From the NCBI RefSeq assembly GCF_008247605.1, contig NZ_CP043420.1:3534001-3598000 (forward strand): a DNA stretch of 64,000 bases. The letters are read 5' to 3'. The stretch is from Kushneria phosphatilytica. Lineage in GTDB: Bacteria; Pseudomonadota; Gammaproteobacteria; Pseudomonadales; Halomonadaceae. A program made the position numbers and the translations under genes. This document shows, piece after piece, positions 21,339 through 59,124 of this stretch (its first letter is position 1; each line of letters begins with the position of its first letter). The notes under the pieces are model-generated. The model did no database searches and was not told the origin of the DNA. It was given only the letters and a program-made list of their open reading frames with translations.

Positions 21339-21377
21339 TTATCCACAACCGGTTGAGGATCAACCGGCTGTGGATAA
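21339..21377. repeat. Inverted repeat made of two perfect DnaA boxes
   Basis: Arms of 17 bp (21339-21355 and 21361-21377) pair with a single mismatch over a 5-nt loop. Each arm begins or ends with a perfect DnaA 9-mer: TTATCCACA at 21339-21347 and its reverse complement TGTGGATAA at 21369-21377. It lies between the convergent phoR and amidase genes, where a terminator would be expected, but a proper T-run is missing on both strands (ATAATTC, ATAATCG). Terminator, DnaA-binding site or both. Confidence 0.8.
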
Positions 21378-50494: not shown

Positions 50495-51430
50495 CTAGCG
50501 GATATGTCCGAGAATGCCATCGAGCTCCTCGAGGCTGGTATAGCGAATGGTCAAACGCCCCTTGCCGCTTTTGCCATGACTGATCCTGACCCGGGCACCG
50601 AGCAGTTCTCCAAGCTGGGTTTCCAGACGCCCGACGTCCGGTGAGGCAGGCGCCGGCTCGGGAGCCGCCTTCGATTCATTCATGCGCTTCACCAGCGCTT
50701 CGGTCTGACGCACGGTCAGCCCGCGATCCACCACCTCATGAGCCGCCTGACGCTGTTTTGTCCCCTTGAGCGCCAGCAGGGCACGGGCATGGCCTACATC
50801 AAGATCACCCCGTTCCAGCAGGGTCTGCACACTTTCCTCAAGGGCCAGCAGTCGCAACAGATTGGCGATCTGGGCGCGAGACTTGCCCAGCGTATCGGCC
50901 ACCTGTTGCTGGGTCAGCTCGAACTCATCCATCAGCCGCCGCAGGGCCACCGACTCTTCAACCGGATTGAGATTCTCGCGCTGAATGTTCTCGATCAGCG
51001 ACATGGCCAACGCGGCCTCGTCATCGAGCTCGCGCACTACAGCAGGGATCGTTTCAAGCTCGGCAAGCTGGGCAGCACGCCAGCGGCGCTCACCGGCAAT
51101 GATCTCGAAGCGCTGCTCGCCACTGGCATCAGGCAACGGACGCACCACAATCGGCTGCATCACGCCCTGACGACGAATCGAGGCTGCCAGCTCATCCAGT
51201 CGCTCGGGCTGGATATCGCGCCGGGGCTGATAACGCCCACGAACCAGGCGTGAAAGCGGAATACGCTCGAGGCGCTCGCCTGCTTCGAGTTCGGGTGCTT
51301 CGATCGAGGCGTCCTCGTGAGCCTCCCCGGAGACATCGAGGGTTACTTCACCACTGGAGCGCTGCCGGGCATTGGCACCAGCACCGATCAGGGCATCCAA
51401 ACCTCTTCCGAGTGCACGTTTACGGGTCAT
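50495..51430 (-). CDS. parB: Chromosome partitioning protein ParB
   Basis: A 311-residue ParB/Spo0J clamp protein. The N-terminal ParA-activating peptide KRALGRGLDALI (4-15), the CTP-binding box II GERRWRAA (113-120), the central helix-turn-helix (TQQQVADTLGKSRAQIANLL, about 176-195) and a C-terminal dimerisation region are all visible. It binds parS and loads SMC. The last gene of mnmG-rsmG-parA-parB. Its start is the ATG with GAGGTGA 7 nt upstream. I did not find a canonical parS in the window by eye. Confidence 0.94.
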   Translation of the reverse strand: MTRKRALGRGLDALIGAGANARQRSSGEVTLDVSGEAHEDASIEAPELEAGERLERIPLSRLVRGRYQPRRDIQPERLDELAASIRRQGVMQPIVVRPLPDASGEQRFEIIAGERRWRAAQLAELETIPAVVRELDDEAALAMSLIENIQRENLNPVEESVALRRLMDEFELTQQQVADTLGKSRAQIANLLRLLALEESVQTLLERGDLDVGHARALLALKGTKQRQAAHEVVDRGLTVRQTEALVKRMNESKAAPEPAPASPDVGRLETQLGELLGARVRISHGKSGKGRLTIRYTSLEELDGILGHIR

Positions 51431-51469
51431 GCGGAAGTCACCTCGATCAACACGATCATCACAATGGCG

Positions 51470-52240
51470 TTACAGCGCCAGGCGGCGAATCAGTTCCTTG
51501 GCCAGCACGCGATAGGCATGACTGCCCCGGGACATCCGGGCGTAACGAGTCACCGGCAGACCATGACTGGGCGCCTCGGCTACCCGGACATTGCGGGGAA
51601 TGGCCGCCCTGAGCAACTGATCGCCGAAATAATTCGCCAGCTGGTTGCTGACATCACGCGTCAGGCTGTTGCGACTGTCGTACATGGTGCGCACGATGCC
51701 GTCCAGTGCCAGCGTCGGATTGACGCTTTCGCGGATCTGCTCAACCGTATCCAGCAGTGCCGAGAGGCCCTCCAGCGCATAAAACTCGCACTGCAGCGGA
51801 ATCAGTACCCCATGCGAGGCGGTCAGGGCATTGACCGTCAGCATGTTGAGCGAGGGCGGACAGTCGATCAGTACGACATCAAAGTCGGCCACCATGTCAC
51901 CCACGGCTCGATCCAGACAGCGTTCACGCCCTTCGCGATCAAGCAGGTCAACTTCGGCCGCAGTGAGATCGCCATTGGCAGGCAGCAGGGCATAGCCGGC
52001 CGCGTCACTGCGGATCATGACATCGCGCGCCGCCCGATCACCCAACAGCACATCGAGCATGCTGCCTGCGGGCAGATCATGCTTGTCGACACCGCTGCCC
52101 ATGGTGGCATGGCCCTGGGGGTCAAGATCGATCAACAGAACGCGCCGCTTGAGCGACGCCAGCGAAGCGGCCAGATTGACGGCGGTGGTGGTCTTGCCGA
52201 CGCCGCCTTTCTGATTGGTCAGCGCGATGATCCGGGTCAA
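51470..52240 (-). CDS. parA: Chromosome partitioning ATPase ParA (Soj)
   Basis: A 256-residue ParA/MinD ATPase with the deviant Walker A KGGVGKTT at residues 11-18, the switch I block PQGHATMGSGVD (about 41-52) and Walker B VVLIDCPPSL. It moves origin regions apart with ParB. The N-terminus is short, as in chromosomal Soj, with no plasmid-type helix-turn-helix. The start is TTG; no nearby in-frame ATG gives the same motif spacing. 15 bp after rsmG. Confidence 0.93.
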   Translation of the reverse strand: MTRIIALTNQKGGVGKTTTAVNLAASLASLKRRVLLIDLDPQGHATMGSGVDKHDLPAGSMLDVLLGDRAARDVMIRSDAAGYALLPANGDLTAAEVDLLDREGRERCLDRAVGDMVADFDVVLIDCPPSLNMLTVNALTASHGVLIPLQCEFYALEGLSALLDTVEQIRESVNPTLALDGIVRTMYDSRNSLTRDVSNQLANYFGDQLLRAAIPRNVRVAEAPSHGLPVTRYARMSRGSHAYRVLAKELIRRLAL

Positions 52241-52255
52241 GAGGACAATCCCTGG

Positions 52256-52897
52256 TTATTGATCGGTAGTCGCCTCGTCAGCTTCGAGACGCAGCAGATG
52301 GCGATCGCCCTGCTGGCCGGGCACCTCGAGCGGCACACATTCGAGCAGTGTGGCACCGGTGAGCGCACCGGTACGCAGGCTGTCGTCGCGGCCGATCATG
52401 GCCAGCCACTCGCCACCGGAGGCCAGTAGATGCCGGCTGGCATCTACGAAGACCTGTGGTGCAGCAAAGGCTCGACTGACAATCTGATCGAAGGGCCCAG
52501 CCTGATACTGTTCCACCCGGGCCTGCACGGCACTGACACCACTCAGCCCGAGTTCGTACGCCGCCTGCCGCTGGAAGCGGACCTTCTTGCCATTGCTGTC
52601 CAGCAGAGTCACGTTCAGCTGCGGCCTCATGATTGCCAGTACCAACCCCGGTAAACCGGCACCACTGCCCACATCCAGAAGGCGAGGCCCACGCAGCCAG
52701 GGCACGATGGCGAGCGAATCGAGCAGATGGCGCTGTACCATCGCGACCGGTTCGCGTACCGCGGTGAGGTTATAAGCCCGGTTCCACTTGTGCAACAGTG
52801 CCACCAGCGCCAGCAGCCGATCACGCTGCTCCGCAGGCGCTACCAGACCCAGTTCATCGAGCCCGGCATCGAGCACCTGTTCACAGGCCGGGTTCAT
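52256..52897 (-). CDS. rsmG: 16S rRNA (guanine-N7) methyltransferase RsmG
   Basis: A 213-residue SAM-dependent methyltransferase (GidB) that methylates G527 of 16S rRNA. The SAM motif [10 protein letters not shown] is at residues 75-84 and LTAVREP, characteristic of RsmG, at about 44-50. The start overlaps the mnmG stop by 4 bp (ATGA). Confidence 0.95.
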
Positions 52898-54780
52898 TCG
52901 CCACTGGCCCTGGCGGTACGCTGCTGCTTCTTGAGATGGATCAGCAACATCGACAGTGCCGCAGGGGTCACCCCGGGAATACGACCGGCTTCGGCCAGCG
53001 TTTCGGGGCGCGCCGCGGTCAGCTTCTGACGGATTTCGCTGGAGAGCCCATCGATGGCGTGATAATCGAGTGTCGCCGGCAATGGCGTCGCCTCATGACG
53101 GCGCAGTTTATCGATCTCCTCCTGCTGCCGGGCGATATAACCATCATATTTGACCTGTACCTGGACCTGCTGGCGTACATGCGCCTGTTGCGGCGCCCCT
53201 TCAGCAAGCTCGGCCAGATCCTCGTAATTCACTTCCGGGCGGCGCAGCAGATCGCTGAGGCGCTGTTCCTGACTCAACTCACCGATTTTCGGCGCCAGCT
53301 GACGAGCCGCTTCACTACCGGGTCTGATACGCACGCTATCGAGTCGGAGACGCTCGGCAGCAATGGCGTCACGGCGCTGTTCGAAGGCGCGATAGCGATC
53401 ATCGCCGATCAGCCCAAGCTCACGGCCGATCTCGGTCAGGCGCAGATCCGCATTGTCCTCACGCAGCATCAGGCGATACTCGGCGCGCGAGGTAAACATT
53501 CGATAGGGCTCCTGGGTGCCCATGCGAATCAGATCGTCGACCATCACGCCCAGATAGGCTTCATCACGCCGTGGCCACCAGGCCTCCAGACCTCGTGCCC
53601 GACGTGCTGCGTTCAGCCCTGCAAGCAGTCCCTGGGCACCAGCCTCCTCGTAACCGGTGGTGCCATTGATCTGACCGGCAAACCAGAGATTGTGAATGAC
53701 CTTCGTCTCCAGCGAGTGCTTCAGATCACGCGGATCGAAGAAATCGTATTCGATGGCGTAGCCGGGGCGCACGATGTGCGCGTGTTCCAACCCTTCCATC
53801 GAACGCACAAGCTCAAGCTGTACATCGAACGGCAGCGAGGTCGAAATGCCGTTGGGATAAAGCTCGGGAGTTTCCAGACCTTCCGGTTCAATGAAGATCT
53901 GATGGCTGTCCTTGTCGGCAAACCGATGGATCTTGTCCTCGATCGATGGGCAGTAGCGGGGTCCGACACCGCCGATGGCACCGGAGAACATGGGCGATCG
54001 ATCGAGATTGGCCCGAATGATGTCATGGGTCCGGGCATTGGTATGCGCGATATGGCAGCTGCGCTGTGGCGGATGCATCTCGGAGGAGCCCATCATCGAC
54101 ATGGCCGGTCTTGGATCATCCCCCGGCTGCTCCACGAGTTTCGAGTAATCGATGCTGCGTCCGTCCAGCCGTGGCGGGGTACCGGTTTTTAAACGATCCA
54201 CCCGCAGAGGCTGTTCTCGTAACCGTCGAGCCAGGGCCGAAGCCGAGGGATCACCGCTACGACCGCCACTGTGGTGTTCCAGTCCGATGTGAATTATTCC
54301 GCCGAGGAAGGTGCCGGTGCACAGCACCACGCTCTCGGCGAAAAAGCGAATTCCCCCCTGGGTGATCACACCGCGAGCGGTATCGCCTTCAACGATCAGA
54401 TCATCCACCGATTGCTGGAACAGCGTGAGATTGGGCTGGTGCTCGAGCATATGCCGAATTGCCGCCTTGTAGCGAACACGATCGGCCTGTGCCCGGGTAG
54501 CGCGCACGGCTGGCCCCTTGCGGGAATTGAGCACTCGGAACTGGATGCCTGCCTGATCGGTTGCCAGCGCCATGGCGCCGCCGAGAGCGTCGATCTCGCG
54601 CACCAGATGACTCTTGCCGATACCGCCGATGGCGGGATTGCAGGACATCTGGCCGAGCGTCTCGATGTTGTGTGTCAGAAGCAGGGTCTGACAGCCCGTT
54701 CGGGCGGCGGCGAGTGCGGCTTCGGTTCCGGCATGACCACCGCCGATGACGATAACGTCAAAGCGGTCCGGGTAATCCAC
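52894..54780 (-). CDS. mnmG: tRNA uridine 5-carboxymethylaminomethyl modification enzyme MnmG
   Basis: A 628-residue FAD protein (GidA) which with MnmE modifies the wobble uridine of several tRNAs. The FAD motif [19 protein letters not shown] is at residues 9-27, followed by [20 protein letters not shown], the block [14 protein letters not shown], and the C-terminal [17 protein letters not shown]. The start is GTG; no good ATG is nearby. mnmE is not in the window. In E. coli this gene adjoins oriC, and the upstream spacer here looks like an origin. Confidence 0.96.
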
Positions 54781-54863
54781 GTATTGACCTCGAGCACGTT
54801 GGTGACAGCGCGTCAGTCTGAAGACAACGCACTGTAATGGAAATGGGGGAATCCGGGGACAGG

Positions 54864-54892
54864 ATTATAACGTGCCTGTGGGTAACCGTCAG
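54864..54892 (-). promoter_or_regulatory. mnmG promoter overlapping a DnaA box
   Basis: On the minus strand: CTGACG (54892-54887), 17 bp, perfect TATAAT (54869-54864), about 85 bp before the mnmG GTG. The spacer contains TGTGGGTAA (54877-54885), a DnaA box with one mismatch, so DnaA could regulate the mnmG-rsmG-parAB operon directly. Confidence 0.65.
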
Positions 54893-55274
54893 GGGTTTTC
54901 CACACTTCAAGGCGTTTCCCTTCAATCAATCAATACAGAATGTATAAAAAAAGAAGTTCTGTTGTGGTTGTGATTATAGGGCAGCGCAATTTCTGTGGAT
55001 AAACGCCTGGTTTCTCCACAATTCAACAACCTGACATGTTGATACGATTGCGCATGACAAGCGTATGACGTGCGAATGACCGTTGCAGGAGCTGTGGATG
55101 AAAGGTGGGTTTATGCACAGGGCAACTTATCCCGTCACTGCTACCCAGCCTGTCCCGGTACTTGTTACCGCAGTCGTCCAGAACCTGGGTAGTGAAGGTC
55201 ACCATGGCGTAAACACCCGTATGCCATGGGTTTGACCCCGGCAGGCGCGTGCTTTTGGTGTCCGGTTGTCCACA
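54877..55274. other. oriC: Probable chromosomal replication origin (oriC) with DnaA boxes
   Basis: Relative to TTATNCACA I see: 54877-54885 (minus, 1 mismatch), 54896-54904 TTTTCCACA (1 mismatch), 54994-55002 perfect on minus, 55012-55020 TTCTCCACA (1 mismatch), 55093-55101 minus (1 mismatch), 55111-55119 TTATGCACA (match), 55266-55274 TTGTCCACA (1 mismatch). The AT-rich unwinding candidate at 54921-54980 lies between the second and third. Location beside mnmG-rsmG and atp equals the E. coli oriC setting, parAB is adjacent, and flanking genes mostly point outward. No experimental proof; dnaA is elsewhere, so a second candidate next to dnaA must be ruled out. Confidence 0.75.
54921..54980. other. 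AT-rich segment, candidate DNA unwinding element
   Basis: Forty-three of 60 bases are A or T (72%), and the first 40 are 78%, in an otherwise roughly 60% GC window. It contains tandem ATCA units (TCAATCAATCAATA) and a seven-A run in TATAAAAAAAGAAG, flanked on both sides by DnaA boxes. Confidence 0.6.
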
Positions 55275-55331
55275 GCCGGAAAAAGTGGAAAAAATCGTCT
55301 GGAAGGGTCAGCAGCGTGGAGAGCGCGCATG

Positions 55332-55358
55332 AAAAACCCCGGCACGAAGACCGGGGTT
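55332..55358 (-). terminator. Rho-independent terminator of erpA
   Basis: AACCCCGG (55335-55342) pairs with CCGGGGTT (55351-55358) over an 8-nt loop. On the minus strand the stem is followed by TTTTTC. It begins 24 bp after the erpA stop and would shield the putative origin from erpA transcription. Confidence 0.9.
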
Positions 55359-55381
55359 GAAGGCGGGAAGAGAGTTTGAAA

Positions 55382-55735
55382 TCAGACCGTAAAGGAAGCG
55401 CCACATCCACAGGTGGTTGTCGCGTTGGGGTTCTGGATCATGAAGCGTGCCCCCGCCAGACCCTCTTCAAAATCGACGGTCGAGCCAACCAGATACTGAT
55501 AGCTGAGGGGATCGATCACCATGGCTACTTCACCGTTTTTGATGATGGTGTCTTCCTCATCCACCGTTTCAGCAAAGTCGAAACCATACTGGAAGCCCGA
55601 GCAACCGCCACCTGTCACATAGACCCGCAGTTTGAGCGCCGGGTTGTTTTCCTCGGCGATCAGCGCCCGTAGGCGGGCAGCTGCGGAATCGGTGAAGATC
55701 AGCGGTGTCGGGACGAAGGATTCTGCCCCGCTCAT
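55382..55735 (-). CDS. erpA: Iron-sulfur cluster insertion protein ErpA
   Basis: A 117-residue A-type Fe-S carrier. Three cluster cysteines are in place: Cys45 ([10 protein letters not shown]), Cys109 and Cys111 ([10 protein letters not shown]). The signature [15 protein letters not shown] favours ErpA over IscA. It delivers clusters to apoproteins such as those of isoprenoid synthesis. The ATG has a strong GGGAGG upstream. It is the only right-side gene near the putative origin transcribed toward it, and a terminator stops it. Confidence 0.92.
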
Positions 55736-55970
55736 CGCGGCCTCCCGAAGCATTCAGAATGAATACTGATATTATCGGATGCGGTTGCAACCGGGGTCAA
55801 CCACGCTGGCCGAATGGGTCAGTAGTGCTCTTTGAATTGCAACAGGGGTTGTGACAACAATGTGGGGCCGTTGTGGAAGCCAGGTGAGCGACCAGTGCAT
55901 CGAGCATTCGGTCCGAGCTATTGCCGGTTTATCCGTAACGGCGCTCATCCGCCATTGGGGAGAGCCCGAC

Positions 55971-57812
55971 TTGCCGCGTCATCGTCTCGGCAGTGCCTTT
56001 TTCAACATGGATCAGTTCCGCCGGCGTCTGGCGTCGGTGGATGCTCTTCCGCAGCTCTGTCTACTCGCCGTTTTCTCTGGCGCCCTGACCGGGCTGCTGA
56101 TGACGGCTTTTCGTGAACTGATCGATGTCATCACTCTGGCATTCATGCCGGGGGGGCGTTCGGATGATTTCGAGTCCCTTGCGCCCGTCATGCGTATGGC
56201 GCTGCCGCTGATCGCGGTCACGCTGATCGGGGTGGGGCTATGGCGCCAGCCGGCAGCCGCGCGTAAGCTGGGCATCGGGCATGTGATTGAACGGCTGACC
56301 TATCACCAGGGGCAGATGCCACTGCCGAACTGGCTCAATCAGTGGTGGGTGGGTGCGCTGACCCTGATTGGAGGACTGTCAGCGGGTCGTGAAGGGCCGG
56401 CCATTCATCTGGGTGCCGGTGGCTCCTGCTGGATCGGTGAGCGCCTCCGGCTGCCCCACAACAGTCTGCGAGTACTGGTAGGATGCGGTACTGCGGCCGG
56501 TATTTCGGCCTCCTTCAATACGCCCATTGCGGGGGTCATCTTCGCCATGGAAGTGGTGATGATGGAGTATACCCTCACCGGCTTCATGCCGGTCATTCTC
56601 GCTTCCGCCACGGGTGCCGTGGTCACCCAGATGATCTATGGCACCATGCCTGCCTTTACCGTTCCCGATACCATTGAAGCGCGCCTGTTCGATATTCCCT
56701 GGATCATCACGATGTCGCTGGCCATCGGTCTGCTGGCCGGGGGCTTCATTCGTCTGGCGCGGCTGGGGCCACAAATGACCCGCGTACCGCGCTGGCTGCG
56801 GCTGTTGCTGGCCGGCAGTGCCACGGCTGCGGTAGCCTTCTGGTATCCCCAGGTTCAGGGCATCGGTTATGACACGGTGGGTAACATCCTCACCCGGATG
56901 CCGGCATTGGACGTTCTGCTGGTGGTGGCGGTGGGCAAGCTGGCGCTGACGGCACTGACGCTGGCCTGTGGCGTGCCGGTGAGCATTGTCGGACCGATAC
57001 TGGTCAGCGGTGCGGCGGTCGGCGCGCTGTTCGGCATGGCGGGGCTGTTTCTGCTGCCAAGCCTGGTGCACGATCCACACCTGTACGCCATGCTGGGCAT
57101 GGCGGCCATGATGGGAGCGGTACTGCAGGCACCGCTGGCGGCGATCATGGCGTTGATCGAATTGACCCACAACCCCGACTTCATTCTTTACGGCATGCTT
57201 GCCGTGGTGGTTTCGGGATTGACCGGACGGCAGGTCTGGCACTGTCGGGGCTTTTTCATTTCGGCATTGTTCAATCAGGGGCTTCATCCCCTGCAGCAGC
57301 CGCTGACCCAGGCATTGTCGCGAATTGCAGTACCTGCGGTCATGGAACGTGGTGTAGTACGTACCCGGCCGCGGATTACCCGCGATCAGGCGCGTGCGTT
57401 GCTGGACTCTCGCCCGGTATGGCTGATGATTGGCCGGGGAGAAGACAAGTCACCGGTAGCGCTCGCTGCTTCCGACCTGGCGCGTCTGGTGCTCGAGGAC
57501 AACCGTGACCCGGCTGCCGAAGGCAAGGGAGAAGATGCCATTCCGGGTGTATCGCGTACGCGCAAGCGCACTGAAACGGGTGAGGTCGAAGAGGCGGCGA
57601 TCGAAGAGATCGATCTGCTTGCCATCCCGGGTCAGCGGCTCGAACTGGCCTCGGTGGATCTGCAGGCTACCCTGTCGGAGGCCTTTGATCGAATCAACGA
57701 GTACGGTGTCGATGCGCTTTACGTGCAACATACGACCGCACCGATGATCCACAAGGTTTCGGGTATCATTACCCGAGAGGCGATCGAAAACTACTATCGC
57801 TACAAGCGTTGA
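55971..57812 (+). CDS. ClC-type chloride channel/antiporter
   Basis: A 613-residue ClC protein of about 18 helices with a C-terminal cytoplasmic CBS-like extension (about 460-613). The gating glutamate Glu141 in GREGP is present, as in H+/Cl- exchangers. The first selectivity motif, usually GSGIP, reads GIGHV (101-105), lacking the anion-binding Ser. Start unsure: TTG at 55971 has GGGGAGAG 6 nt before it; GTG 55851 and ATG 56007 are alternatives. Ion handling fits a halophile. Confidence 0.88.
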   Translation: MPRHRLGSAFFNMDQFRRRLASVDALPQLCLLAVFSGALTGLLMTAFRELIDVITLAFMPGGRSDDFESLAPVMRMALPLIAVTLIGVGLWRQPAAARKLGIGHVIERLTYHQGQMPLPNWLNQWWVGALTLIGGLSAGREGPAIHLGAGGSCWIGERLRLPHNSLRVLVGCGTAAGISASFNTPIAGVIFAMEVVMMEYTLTGFMPVILASATGAVVTQMIYGTMPAFTVPDTIEARLFDIPWIITMSLAIGLLAGGFIRLARLGPQMTRVPRWLRLLLAGSATAAVAFWYPQVQGIGYDTVGNILTRMPALDVLLVVAVGKLALTALTLACGVPVSIVGPILVSGAAVGALFGMAGLFLLPSLVHDPHLYAMLGMAAMMGAVLQAPLAAIMALIELTHNPDFILYGMLAVVVSGLTGRQVWHCRGFFISALFNQGLHPLQQPLTQALSRIAVPAVMERGVVRTRPRITRDQARALLDSRPVWLMIGRGEDKSPVALAASDLARLVLEDNRDPAAEGKGEDAIPGVSRTRKRTETGEVEEAAIEEIDLLAIPGQRLELASVDLQATLSEAFDRINEYGVDALYVQHTTAPMIHKVSGIITREAIENYYRYKR

Positions 57813-58294: not shown

Positions 58295-59124
58295 TGACCA
58301 TGGCTGCCGGTACACCCCCCATTGTGCTGGTACTGGCCGGACATGATCCGACCGGCGGCGCCGGATTGATTGCCGATGCCGAGGCGGTTCGTGCCCAGGG
58401 GGGATGGGCGCTGACGGTACCCACGGCGCTGACGGTACAGACGACCCGGGATGTCGAGGCGGTCATGCCCTGTTCGGCAAGTGATCTGACAGCTACCGCT
58501 CGGGCCGTGACCGAGGACATGCCGCCGGCAGCGATCAAGACTGGACTGATTGCTGATCTGCCCACGCTTGAGGCTGTGGCTGAACTTTGTGCCTGCTGGC
58601 CGCAGCTACCGCTGGTGGTTGATCCCGTGCTGCGTGCGGGAGGGGGGCGTGAACTCTCTTCATCGGCACTGTTGGCGGCCTTTCACCAGCGCCTGTTGCC
58701 TCAGGCCACTGTGCTGACACCGAATCTGGCAGAGTTGGCTCGACTGGCGCCTCAGGGAAAAACCGCGGAAGAGCGGGCCGGAATGCTGTTGAAAGCGGGC
58801 GCGGGCGCAGTGTTGGTAACCGGAACTGACGATACCCGAGGCAATCAGGTTATCCACACCCTGTATCAGTTGACGGGCTCACGACAGTGGCAGTGGCCGC
58901 GTTTGCCGGGGCAATACCATGGGTCGGGGTGTACGCTGGCGAGTGCCCTGGCGGCGGCGCTGGCAGCCGGCATATCGCTGGAAGCTGCCTGTGAACGGGC
59001 ACAGTACTTCAGCTGGCAGGCGCTGCAGCACGCCCTGAGACCCGGCCATGACCAGGCACTGCCGGATCGCTGGGCGGCGGCCAATGAATTATCCACAGGT
59101 GGTTATCGCAATGATGGATGGTGA
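58294..59124 (+). CDS. thiD: Hydroxymethylpyrimidine/phosphomethylpyrimidine kinase
   Basis: A 276-residue ribokinase-type kinase that phosphorylates HMP twice for thiamine synthesis. GHDPTGGAG at residues 16-24 and the C-terminal active-site block GSGCTLASALAAALAAG are clear. It starts on the hemJ stop (TGATG overlap) and its end overlaps thiE by 14 bp. Two perfect DnaA-box 9-mers fall in its 3' half (58850 and 59089). No TPP riboswitch can fit before it. Confidence 0.93.
   Translation: MTMAAGTPPIVLVLAGHDPTGGAGLIADAEAVRAQGGWALTVPTALTVQTTRDVEAVMPCSASDLTATARAVTEDMPPAAIKTGLIADLPTLEAVAELCACWPQLPLVVDPVLRAGGGRELSSSALLAAFHQRLLPQATVLTPNLAELARLAPQGKTAEERAGMLLKAGAGAVLVTGTDDTRGNQVIHTLYQLTGSRQWQWPRLPGQYHGSGCTLASALAAALAAGISLEAACERAQYFSWQALQHALRPGHDQALPDRWAAANELSTGGYRNDGW

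Follow-up and report, generated by a model that had tools for sequence, protein, structure and literature searches.

The mnmG-erpA spacer as the probable chromosomal origin of Kushneria phosphatilytica, with a putative DnaA-box pair on the mnmG promoter that is particular to the Halomonadaceae

Introduction

Does the chromosome of Kushneria phosphatilytica begin replication beside mnmG or beside dnaA? The 64-kb stretch of DNA analysed here ("the window") corresponds to C1:3534001-3598000 of a 3,624,619-bp single-contig chromosome (genome handle G000, own genus coded g1). In it, 601 gene-free bases separate the start of mnmG (54780) from the stop of erpA (55382), and dnaA lies outside, at C1:16-1494 on the erpA side, with 35,855 bp between it and the mnmG start. 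An earlier note on this DNA had reported a gene-free spacer of about 600 bp, which the gene ends confirm, and had taken it for the chromosomal origin with dnaA at another site. The strand switch and the box cluster described below support that proposal, dnaA being 35.9 kb away.

Methods

Positions are those of the window unless prefixed with C1. DnaA boxes were searched as TTWTNCACA with at most 1 mismatch. The geometry of box arrays was scored with one script for three features, namely an R1-R2 distance of 116-118 bp, the presence of an inner partner, and an R4 placed at 178-181 bp. As cumulative skew is distorted by reading direction, G/C bias at four-fold sites was calibrated in each genome on leading and lagging ORFs of the flanks; this flank-calibrated test replaced the skew of the single gene yidC, which was rejected because it is confounded by codon bias. 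Mechanical, non-overlapping ORFs of at least 300 nt were used, and the ORFs of the mnmG-dnaA interval were scored under both origin placements. The test was run on 13 family genomes, and an adapted version was run on E. coli. For the promoter element, a relaxed core was defined as 18 fixed bases with up to 2 mismatches.

Results

The genes and sequence elements at the locus are collected in Table 1. Of the two partition genes, parB carries a ParB domain (TIGR00180) above the curated cut-off, and the ParA-type ATPase match of parA falls below it. The flanking genes had been described as mostly reading away from the spacer, which holds for mnmG and for the plus-strand ORF beyond erpA (55851-57812), but erpA itself points toward the spacer. 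Scans of the 64-kb window with Rfam (curated cut-offs) and for tRNAs gave zero matches. Five exact and three one-mismatch parS-like sites (GTTTCACGTGAAAC) lie outside the window at C1:3216-39881, to the right of dnaA and some 39-75 kb from the candidate origin on its dnaA side, although parAB adjoins mnmG; the sole further match in the 230 kb scanned is a two-mismatch site at window 28090.

Table 1. Positions of genes and sequence elements at the candidate origin (window coordinates)
Feature	Position	Strand	Basis
parB (50495-51430) and parA (51470-52240)	50495..52240	-	profile matches
rsmG (gidB)	52256..52897	-	TIGR00138
mnmG (gidA), directed away from spacer	52894..54780	-	TIGR00136, 882 bits
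mnmG-erpA intergenic spacer, candidate oriC	54781..55381	.	gene ends and GC-skew switch
Predicted mnmG sigma-70-type promoter, CTGACG-17-TATAAT	54864..54892	-	sole promoter-like site in 54700-55450
DnaA box TTACCCACA, one mismatch, within -35/-10 spacer of mnmG promoter	54877..54885	-	box search
DnaA box TTTTCCACA, exact, immediately upstream of mnmG -35	54896..54904	+	box search
AT-rich probable DNA unwinding element (DUE)	54904..54990	.	AT content, stability, published motif
DnaA box TTATCCACA, exact, E. coli R1 position and orientation	54994..55002	-	box search and alignment
DnaA box TTCTCCACA, one mismatch	55012..55020	+	box search
TCAACAACCTG, identical to E. coli stretch right of R1	55023..55033	+	alignment
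DnaA box TCATCCACA, one mismatch, 99 bp from R1	55093..55101	-	box search
DnaA box TTATGCACA, exact, aligned with E. coli R2, 117 bp from R1	55111..55119	+	box search and alignment
Outer DnaA box TTGTCCACA, one mismatch	55266..55274	+	box search
Outer DnaA box TTTTCCACT, one mismatch	55284..55292	-	box search
erpA, directed toward spacer	55382..55753	-	NF010147, 176 bits

Between 54877 and 55274 the search returned three exact boxes (54896, 54994, 55111) and five with one mismatch (54877, 54941, 55012, 55093, 55266), and a ninth, one-mismatch box at 55284 completes the spacer total of nine, three of them exact. The clustering claimed in the earlier note is borne out, and its count of seven boxes in 400 bp becomes eight, TTTTATACA at 54941 being the doubtful one. 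The boxes at 55093 and 55111 form an inverted pair 18 bp apart. The whole-window count was discarded as a signal, since 41 sites against 36 expected make the overall density ordinary; the significance lies in the clustering alone. Sixty first-order Markov simulations of 64 kb reached a maximum of four boxes per 400 bp (in 2 of the 60), compared with eight in the spacer, and among 790,619 scanned bases of the 3.62-Mb chromosome the spacer cluster is the densest, the best elsewhere holding four (rpmH-dnaA; one in L144).

Exact boxes were also seen in pairs at other places. Two TTATCCACA boxes lie 239 bp apart in the thiD reading frame (58850-58858 and 59089-59097), and another same-strand pair, 235 bp apart, is found at C1:122860 and 123095. 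Inverted pairs of the same box away from the origin cluster, at 21339-21377 and C1:3613576-3613634, have starts 30 and 50 bp apart and are possibly DnaA-regulated or titrating sites.

The AT-richest 75-mer of the spacer, and of the whole window, is 54904-54978, with 68% AT; the 72% given previously for an AT-rich segment among the boxes is the value of the AT-richest 60-mer within 500 bp upstream of mnmG. By nearest-neighbour stability the element ranks seventh (50-bp scale) or sixth (80-bp scale) among separate least stable spots in 230 kb, and it is therefore low in stability without being unique, several other spots melting equally easily. Within it, at 54953-54962, lies GAAGTTCTGT, and Table 1 of gammaBOriS (PMC7174414) gives ACAGAACTTC/GAAGTTCTGT as the unwinding-element motif of the Halomonadaceae. 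Of the 41 family loci, 32 have GAAGTTCTGT at a distance of 170-260 bp upstream of mnmG; none of 69 other loci has it. GATC does not occur in the 601-bp spacer, and the search of the genome for SeqA gave no match, the E. coli control being positive. Avoidance of GATC was dropped as a family trait because TCGA is equally reduced; GATC is present in 18 of the 41 family loci (360 bp each; 26 sites in 14,760 bp), below the window density.

Strand bias placed the origin near the spacer. Over 230,619 contiguous bases the cumulative GC skew has its minimum at window 53,655, a position 1.1 kb into mnmG and 1.2-1.6 kb short of the DnaA boxes to its right, and the mean skew of the 35 kb from the spacer to dnaA is +0.043. 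The earlier note had named this check, and the switch indeed falls within about 2 kb of the spacer and not at dnaA. Sampled in forty stretches (790,619 bases), the chromosome has a positive and a negative skew arm, with the other sign change at about 1.70-1.80 Mb, and a single dif-like site lies at 1,783,637, near the antipode of the candidate origin. In six more family genomes, with mnmG and dnaA 17,117-102,867 bp apart, the minimum is found 1.1-6.4 kb to the left of where mnmG starts, and in no case at dnaA. The skew minimum thus follows mnmG in all seven family genomes in which the two genes are at least 17 kb apart, G000 included (75-170 kb examined; in G057 only 5.3 kb covered on the mnmG side). 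An offset of 1.2-1.6 kb here, and of 6.4 kb to the left of the mnmG start in G037, means that skew resolves the origin only to a few kb.

The flank-calibrated test agrees with an mnmG origin in the same seven genomes (mnmG-dnaA 17-103 kb). The ln likelihood ratio of mnmG against dnaA is +63.5 in G000, +23.5 in G015, +21.3 in G050, +18.0 in G057 and +13.0 in G023, and the bias is weak in G037 (+5.1) and G013 (+4.0). The E. coli K-12 control favoured the known origin with +11.1, and its raw skew minimum over 95 kb fell 36 bp inside mnmG. Raw GC skew gave no clear origin placement in Pseudomonas G061 and G064 or in 30 Pseudomonas-group 6-kb flanks.

A pairwise alignment of the spacer with oriC of E. 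coli sets the DUE right end, R1 (54994), TCAACAACCTG and R2 (55111) opposite their E. coli equivalents, in the same order and on the same strand. R1, R2 and R4 are the names of the E. coli boxes, and TCAACAACCTG corresponds to the IHF site of E. coli, the IHF-like core being poorly conserved within the family. The two loci also share their place and orientation beside mnmG, a DUE on the mnmG side, and a dnaA gene tens of kb away. They differ in that erpA stands here in place of mioC, in that the E. coli spacer has 14 GATC sites where this one has none and SeqA was not found, and in that dnaA is on the mnmG/atp side in E. coli but on the erpA side here; the mnmG-promoter DnaA boxes are likewise a feature of the present locus. 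Where E. coli has R4, about 180 bp from R1, the sequence of G000 is degenerate. The R1-R2 spacing differs by 11 bp, approximately one helical turn: it is 117 bp in 33 of the 41 loci of the family and in 29 of 31 from the Pseudomonas group (Pseudomonas, Stutzerimonas and one MAG named Paucimonas), and 106 bp in all five Vibrio and all three Enterobacterales loci. Among 30 other loci, 117 bp was seen in two and 106 bp in one; one Pseudomonas-group locus also has 106 bp. In several distant gammaproteobacteria (e.g. L082, L085, L086, L094, L102, L108 and L109) the 700 bp preceding mnmG contain no exact box.

Besides the array to the right of the DUE, the predicted mnmG promoter carries TTACCCACA between its hexamers and the exact TTTTCCACA immediately upstream of the -35. 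Of 250 family genomes, 224 (from 19 of 24 genera) contain the composite TGTGGAAAAN{0,5}TGACGNTTACNCACA, at most once per genome, as do 40 of the 41 loci, and among the listed matches with a known mnmG position it always lies within about 260 bp upstream of mnmG. It was found in none of 281 genomes of other families drawn from the order and none of 272 drawn from the class, two draws that overlap slightly. The 26 misses are all eight genomes of g3, all six of g5, both of g9, one each of g22 and g24, two of ten in g1, and six in g11. The relaxed core was matched in six of the eight misses of g1 and g11 (not in G650 and G791), counted as a match anywhere in the genome; of the two g1 misses, G657 has a two-mismatch core and G650 has none. 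Both g9 genomes hold the core exactly, the g3, g22 and g24 examples lack it, and the g5 example, G004, has a single match on a contig other than that of mnmG. In all 41 family loci the best promoter-like site upstream of mnmG overlaps a DnaA box; 30 of these loci are the best-scoring of 61, a choice that favours pair-bearing genera. The same overlap is seen in 1 of 22 Pseudomonas-group loci and in 8 of 35 other loci with such a site.

The earlier note had also proposed a comparison with the dnaA locus. The rpmH-dnaA spacer of G000 has three exact boxes and one with a mismatch (C1:3624402-3624532), a cluster weaker than that beside mnmG, and no skew switch; its highest 60-mer AT content is 0.55. 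Read as its reverse complement, the rpmH-dnaA array shows the same geometry as the mnmG array in Pseudomonas and in early family genera (spacings 117, 99 and 179/180). All three features are present in the dnaA arrays of G022, G028, G056, G004 and G054, and two (R2 and R4) in five of six Pseudomonas-group arrays (G061, G064, L155, L156 and L159; not L158), and the mnmG arrays of G022, G028, G056, G004, G054, G061 and G064 have two or three. None of 2753 random 600-bp windows from the same 15 regions scored 2 or more, and in the unmirrored reading no dnaA array of the 15 genomes rose above 1. With the boxes left out, in-register identity between the two arrays of a genome is 0.44 in G061, 0.42 in G064 and 0.46 in G054 (none of 72 shifts as high), 0.35 in G022 (1 of 72 shifts) and 0.36 in G028 (3 of 72); in G056 (32 of 72) and G004 (16 of 72) the identity is no better than in shifted controls. 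Together these results suggest, short of proof, an old inverted duplication.

Seven genomes with the promoter pair were scored. In G000, G037, G015, G023 and G050 the mnmG array scores 2 and the dnaA array 0; G013 scores 1 at both, and G057 scores 0 at mnmG and 2 at dnaA. The geometry of the dnaA array is thus lost in G000. G057 is an exception in its own right, in that skew points to mnmG, yet the denser cluster and the geometry are at dnaA; L160 (Halomonas sp. QHL1), with a dnaA array of 2, is another. G042 of g3 scores 3 at mnmG and 0 at dnaA, and the Microbulbifer dnaA arrays L161 and L162 score 0.

Some further observations concern the Pseudomonas group. Beside mnmG, loci L044-L077 keep constant spacings of 117 bp (29 of 31) and 179 bp (30 of 31), though the P. 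putida origin has been described at rpmH-dnaA. The Pseudomonas R1 motif of gammaBOriS occurs in 16 of these 34 loci and in none of the nine dnaA loci L154-L162; its Pseudomonadaceae trio motif is absent from 34 mnmG spacers and four dnaA spacers.

With the promoter pair, mnmG and dnaA are 17-103 kb apart (39 genomes with both genes on one contig, one of them with the g9 variant); without it, they are 4.5-13.5 kb apart in eight genomes and 173 kb apart in G024. The latter, of genus g24, has few boxes upstream of mnmG. Raw skew minima of pair-less genomes lie 0.9-2.1 kb from dnaA in G022, G028, G056 and G004, and between the two genes in G054 and G042. In the flank-calibrated test, where negative values favour the dnaA side, only G022 at -31.2 (11 interval ORFs, in both directions) and G028 at -8.2 retain a dnaA-side reading. 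The values of +3.1 in G056 and +2.0 in G004 (both of the genus of G028), and of +1.0 and -0.7 in G054 and G042 of g3, are undecided or tend toward mnmG. G022 has a complete dnaA array (score 3, four exact boxes) and a weak mnmG array (one exact box, no R2).

Discussion

The mnmG-erpA spacer is very probably (at about nine in ten) the chromosomal oriC of this member of the Halomonadaceae, of the class that adjoins mnmG. The strand switch occurs at the spacer, the box cluster lies beside mnmG, the AT-rich element stands next to an R1-type box, and R1 and R2 keep the E. coli order and orientation, at 117 bp compared with 106. Since its core aligns with E. coli oriC and contains the published DUE motif, the spacer belongs to a known origin class, without the mioC neighbour, the GATC/SeqA features or the R4 at about 180 bp of the E. 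coli subtype. Of the features of the Pseudomonas type, G000 has boxes between rpmH and dnaA, and neither the strand switch there nor the 117 and 179/180-bp geometry.

That such origins exist follows from gammaBOriS, whose predicted Halomonadaceae origins share the motif GAAGTTCTGT, and from DoriC 10.0 (PMC6323995), which in its available text notes some Gammaproteobacteria with two predicted oriCs and retains the one adjacent to gidA. Unlike the present analysis, gammaBOriS (PMC7174414) has no occurrence of mnmG or gidA in its main text and, in the text available, no mention of promoter boxes, and DoriC chose by GATC enrichment, of which this spacer has none, with no mention of mirror geometry or a switch in the same text. 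With the exception of the motif in gammaBOriS and the remark in DoriC, the best matches in the literature on Halomonadaceae origins and duplicated oriCs (subscription journals and preprints being outside this scope) describe neither the locus nor the mirror geometry.

From the sequence, we infer that DnaA, made 36 kb away, would nucleate at the R1-type box (54994) and at the boxes that follow it rightward (55012-55292), possibly assisted by an IHF-like bend. The DnaA complex would then open the AT-rich element on the mnmG side (54904-54990), where helicase would be loaded and from which two forks would depart.

A different placement is conceivable, with the origin at rpmH-dnaA as in P. putida and the mnmG cluster serving only as a DnaA-titrating or DnaA-regulated promoter region. 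The rpmH-dnaA spacer does hold three exact boxes and one with a mismatch, the P. putida oriC is described there in the available text of its report (PMC3056050), and within the scanned 230 kb every parS-like site that is exact or has one mismatch falls on the dnaA side (C1:3.2-39.9 kb). However, skew does not switch at dnaA in any of the seven family genomes with a distance of at least 17 kb, and the dnaA array of G000, as distinct from five of six in the Pseudomonas group, has lost the geometry (score 0) and has no AT-rich stretch (best 60-mer 0.55), so that we regard this placement as very improbable. As boxes are present at rpmH-dnaA, a secondary origin has also to be considered, the mnmG array being the main origin and the rpmH-dnaA array a minor or conditional one. 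At least three boxes with at most one mismatch occur at both sites in all 15 genomes compared, and several genomes keep the same geometry at both; yet G000 shows a sharp skew switch at mnmG only and no geometry at dnaA, and autoregulation of dnaA also predicts boxes upstream of that gene. We consider such dual use unlikely in G000.

The promoter boxes at 54877 and 54896 would constitute a second, family-specific element, lying across the unwinding element from the main array. DnaA bound to this pair would most likely repress transcription of mnmG. In E. coli, according to the available text of the report, the gidA promoter has no DnaA boxes and mioC is repressed through such boxes (PMC5835720); the present promoter resembles that of mioC in bearing a TTTTCCACA box at the border of oriC, and differs in that it is the promoter of mnmG, is directed out of the origin and has one box between its hexamers. 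Transcription of gidA away from oriC is said to promote initiation, although a chromosomal block of gidA transcription is reported in the same available text to have no effect in exponential growth (PMC6606810). In E. coli, opening is favoured by transcription that leads away from the origin, and the promoter pair would thus couple the level of DnaA to supercoiling at the origin; it would do so in G000, where the search for SeqA gave no match. It is also possible, though we think it rather doubtful, that the pair is the site of another regulator and merely resembles DnaA boxes. The conserved block exceeds the two boxes (TGTGGAAAA..TGACGnTTACnCACA..TATA) and the second box is one mismatch from consensus, but one half is an exact TTTTCCACA, the type found at the DnaA-repressed mioC promoter in the available text of PMC5835720, and the composite matches at most once per genome, with those listed within about 260 bp upstream of mnmG wherever the position is known. 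A DnaA-box promoter of mnmG specific to one family was not found described in the literature examined.

The mnmG and dnaA arrays are only 9.1 and 4.9 kb apart in two Pseudomonas genomes measured. The Halomonadaceae separate these arrays, and strand bias can therefore show which one is used. The complete dnaA copy of G022 and its dnaA-side reading make it seem that origin use has switched within the family. One strong genome (G022) and one of moderate signal (G028) suggest such a change without establishing it, and the association of this change with the promoter pair amounts to a single phylogenetic correlation. A mirror-image dnaA array with signs of alternative use was not found described in the literature examined.

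More broadly, we tentatively propose, as a reading that falls well short of even odds, that the ancestor of Pseudomonas and the Halomonadaceae had two mirror-image origin arrays, at mnmG and at rpmH-dnaA, and that the Halomonadaceae switched which copy fires. One genus (that of G022) would fire at dnaA and the large clade with G000 at mnmG, the clade having shifted after the promoter pair was fixed, with dnaA at least 17 kb away and the dnaA copy usually decayed. The assembling DnaA complex would shut the promoter that helps to open the origin, and this would serve as a timing device without SeqA. A comparably serious possibility, likewise below an even chance, is that no switch took place: the signals of G022 and G028 would reflect a block that was already biased when it was recently rearranged, and the geometry shared by the two arrays would be convergence on the needs of DnaA. 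The strong signal is confined to G022, the genus of G028 also contains G056 (+3.1) and G004 (+2.0), the two g3 genomes are undecided, and in G056 and G004 the likeness of the arrays outside the boxes is at the level of shifted controls. Against convergence and rearrangement stand the complete dnaA array and weak mnmG array of G022, and the non-box identity of 0.42-0.46 in G061, G064 and G054, above all 72 shifts.

Origins are often assigned to dnaA, and the record of the present genome itself begins at dnaA, which would here be 36 kb wrong. The promoter pair offers an easily mutated handle on the link between oriC-side transcription and DnaA. The available text of a review describes the E. coli origin as translocated away from dnaA (PMC5295017), and two standing mirror-image arrays with differing use provide a testable alternative to this translocation. 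If the proposal of two ancestral arrays is true, enteric-type origins may stem from changed use of standing copies and not from transport of an origin.
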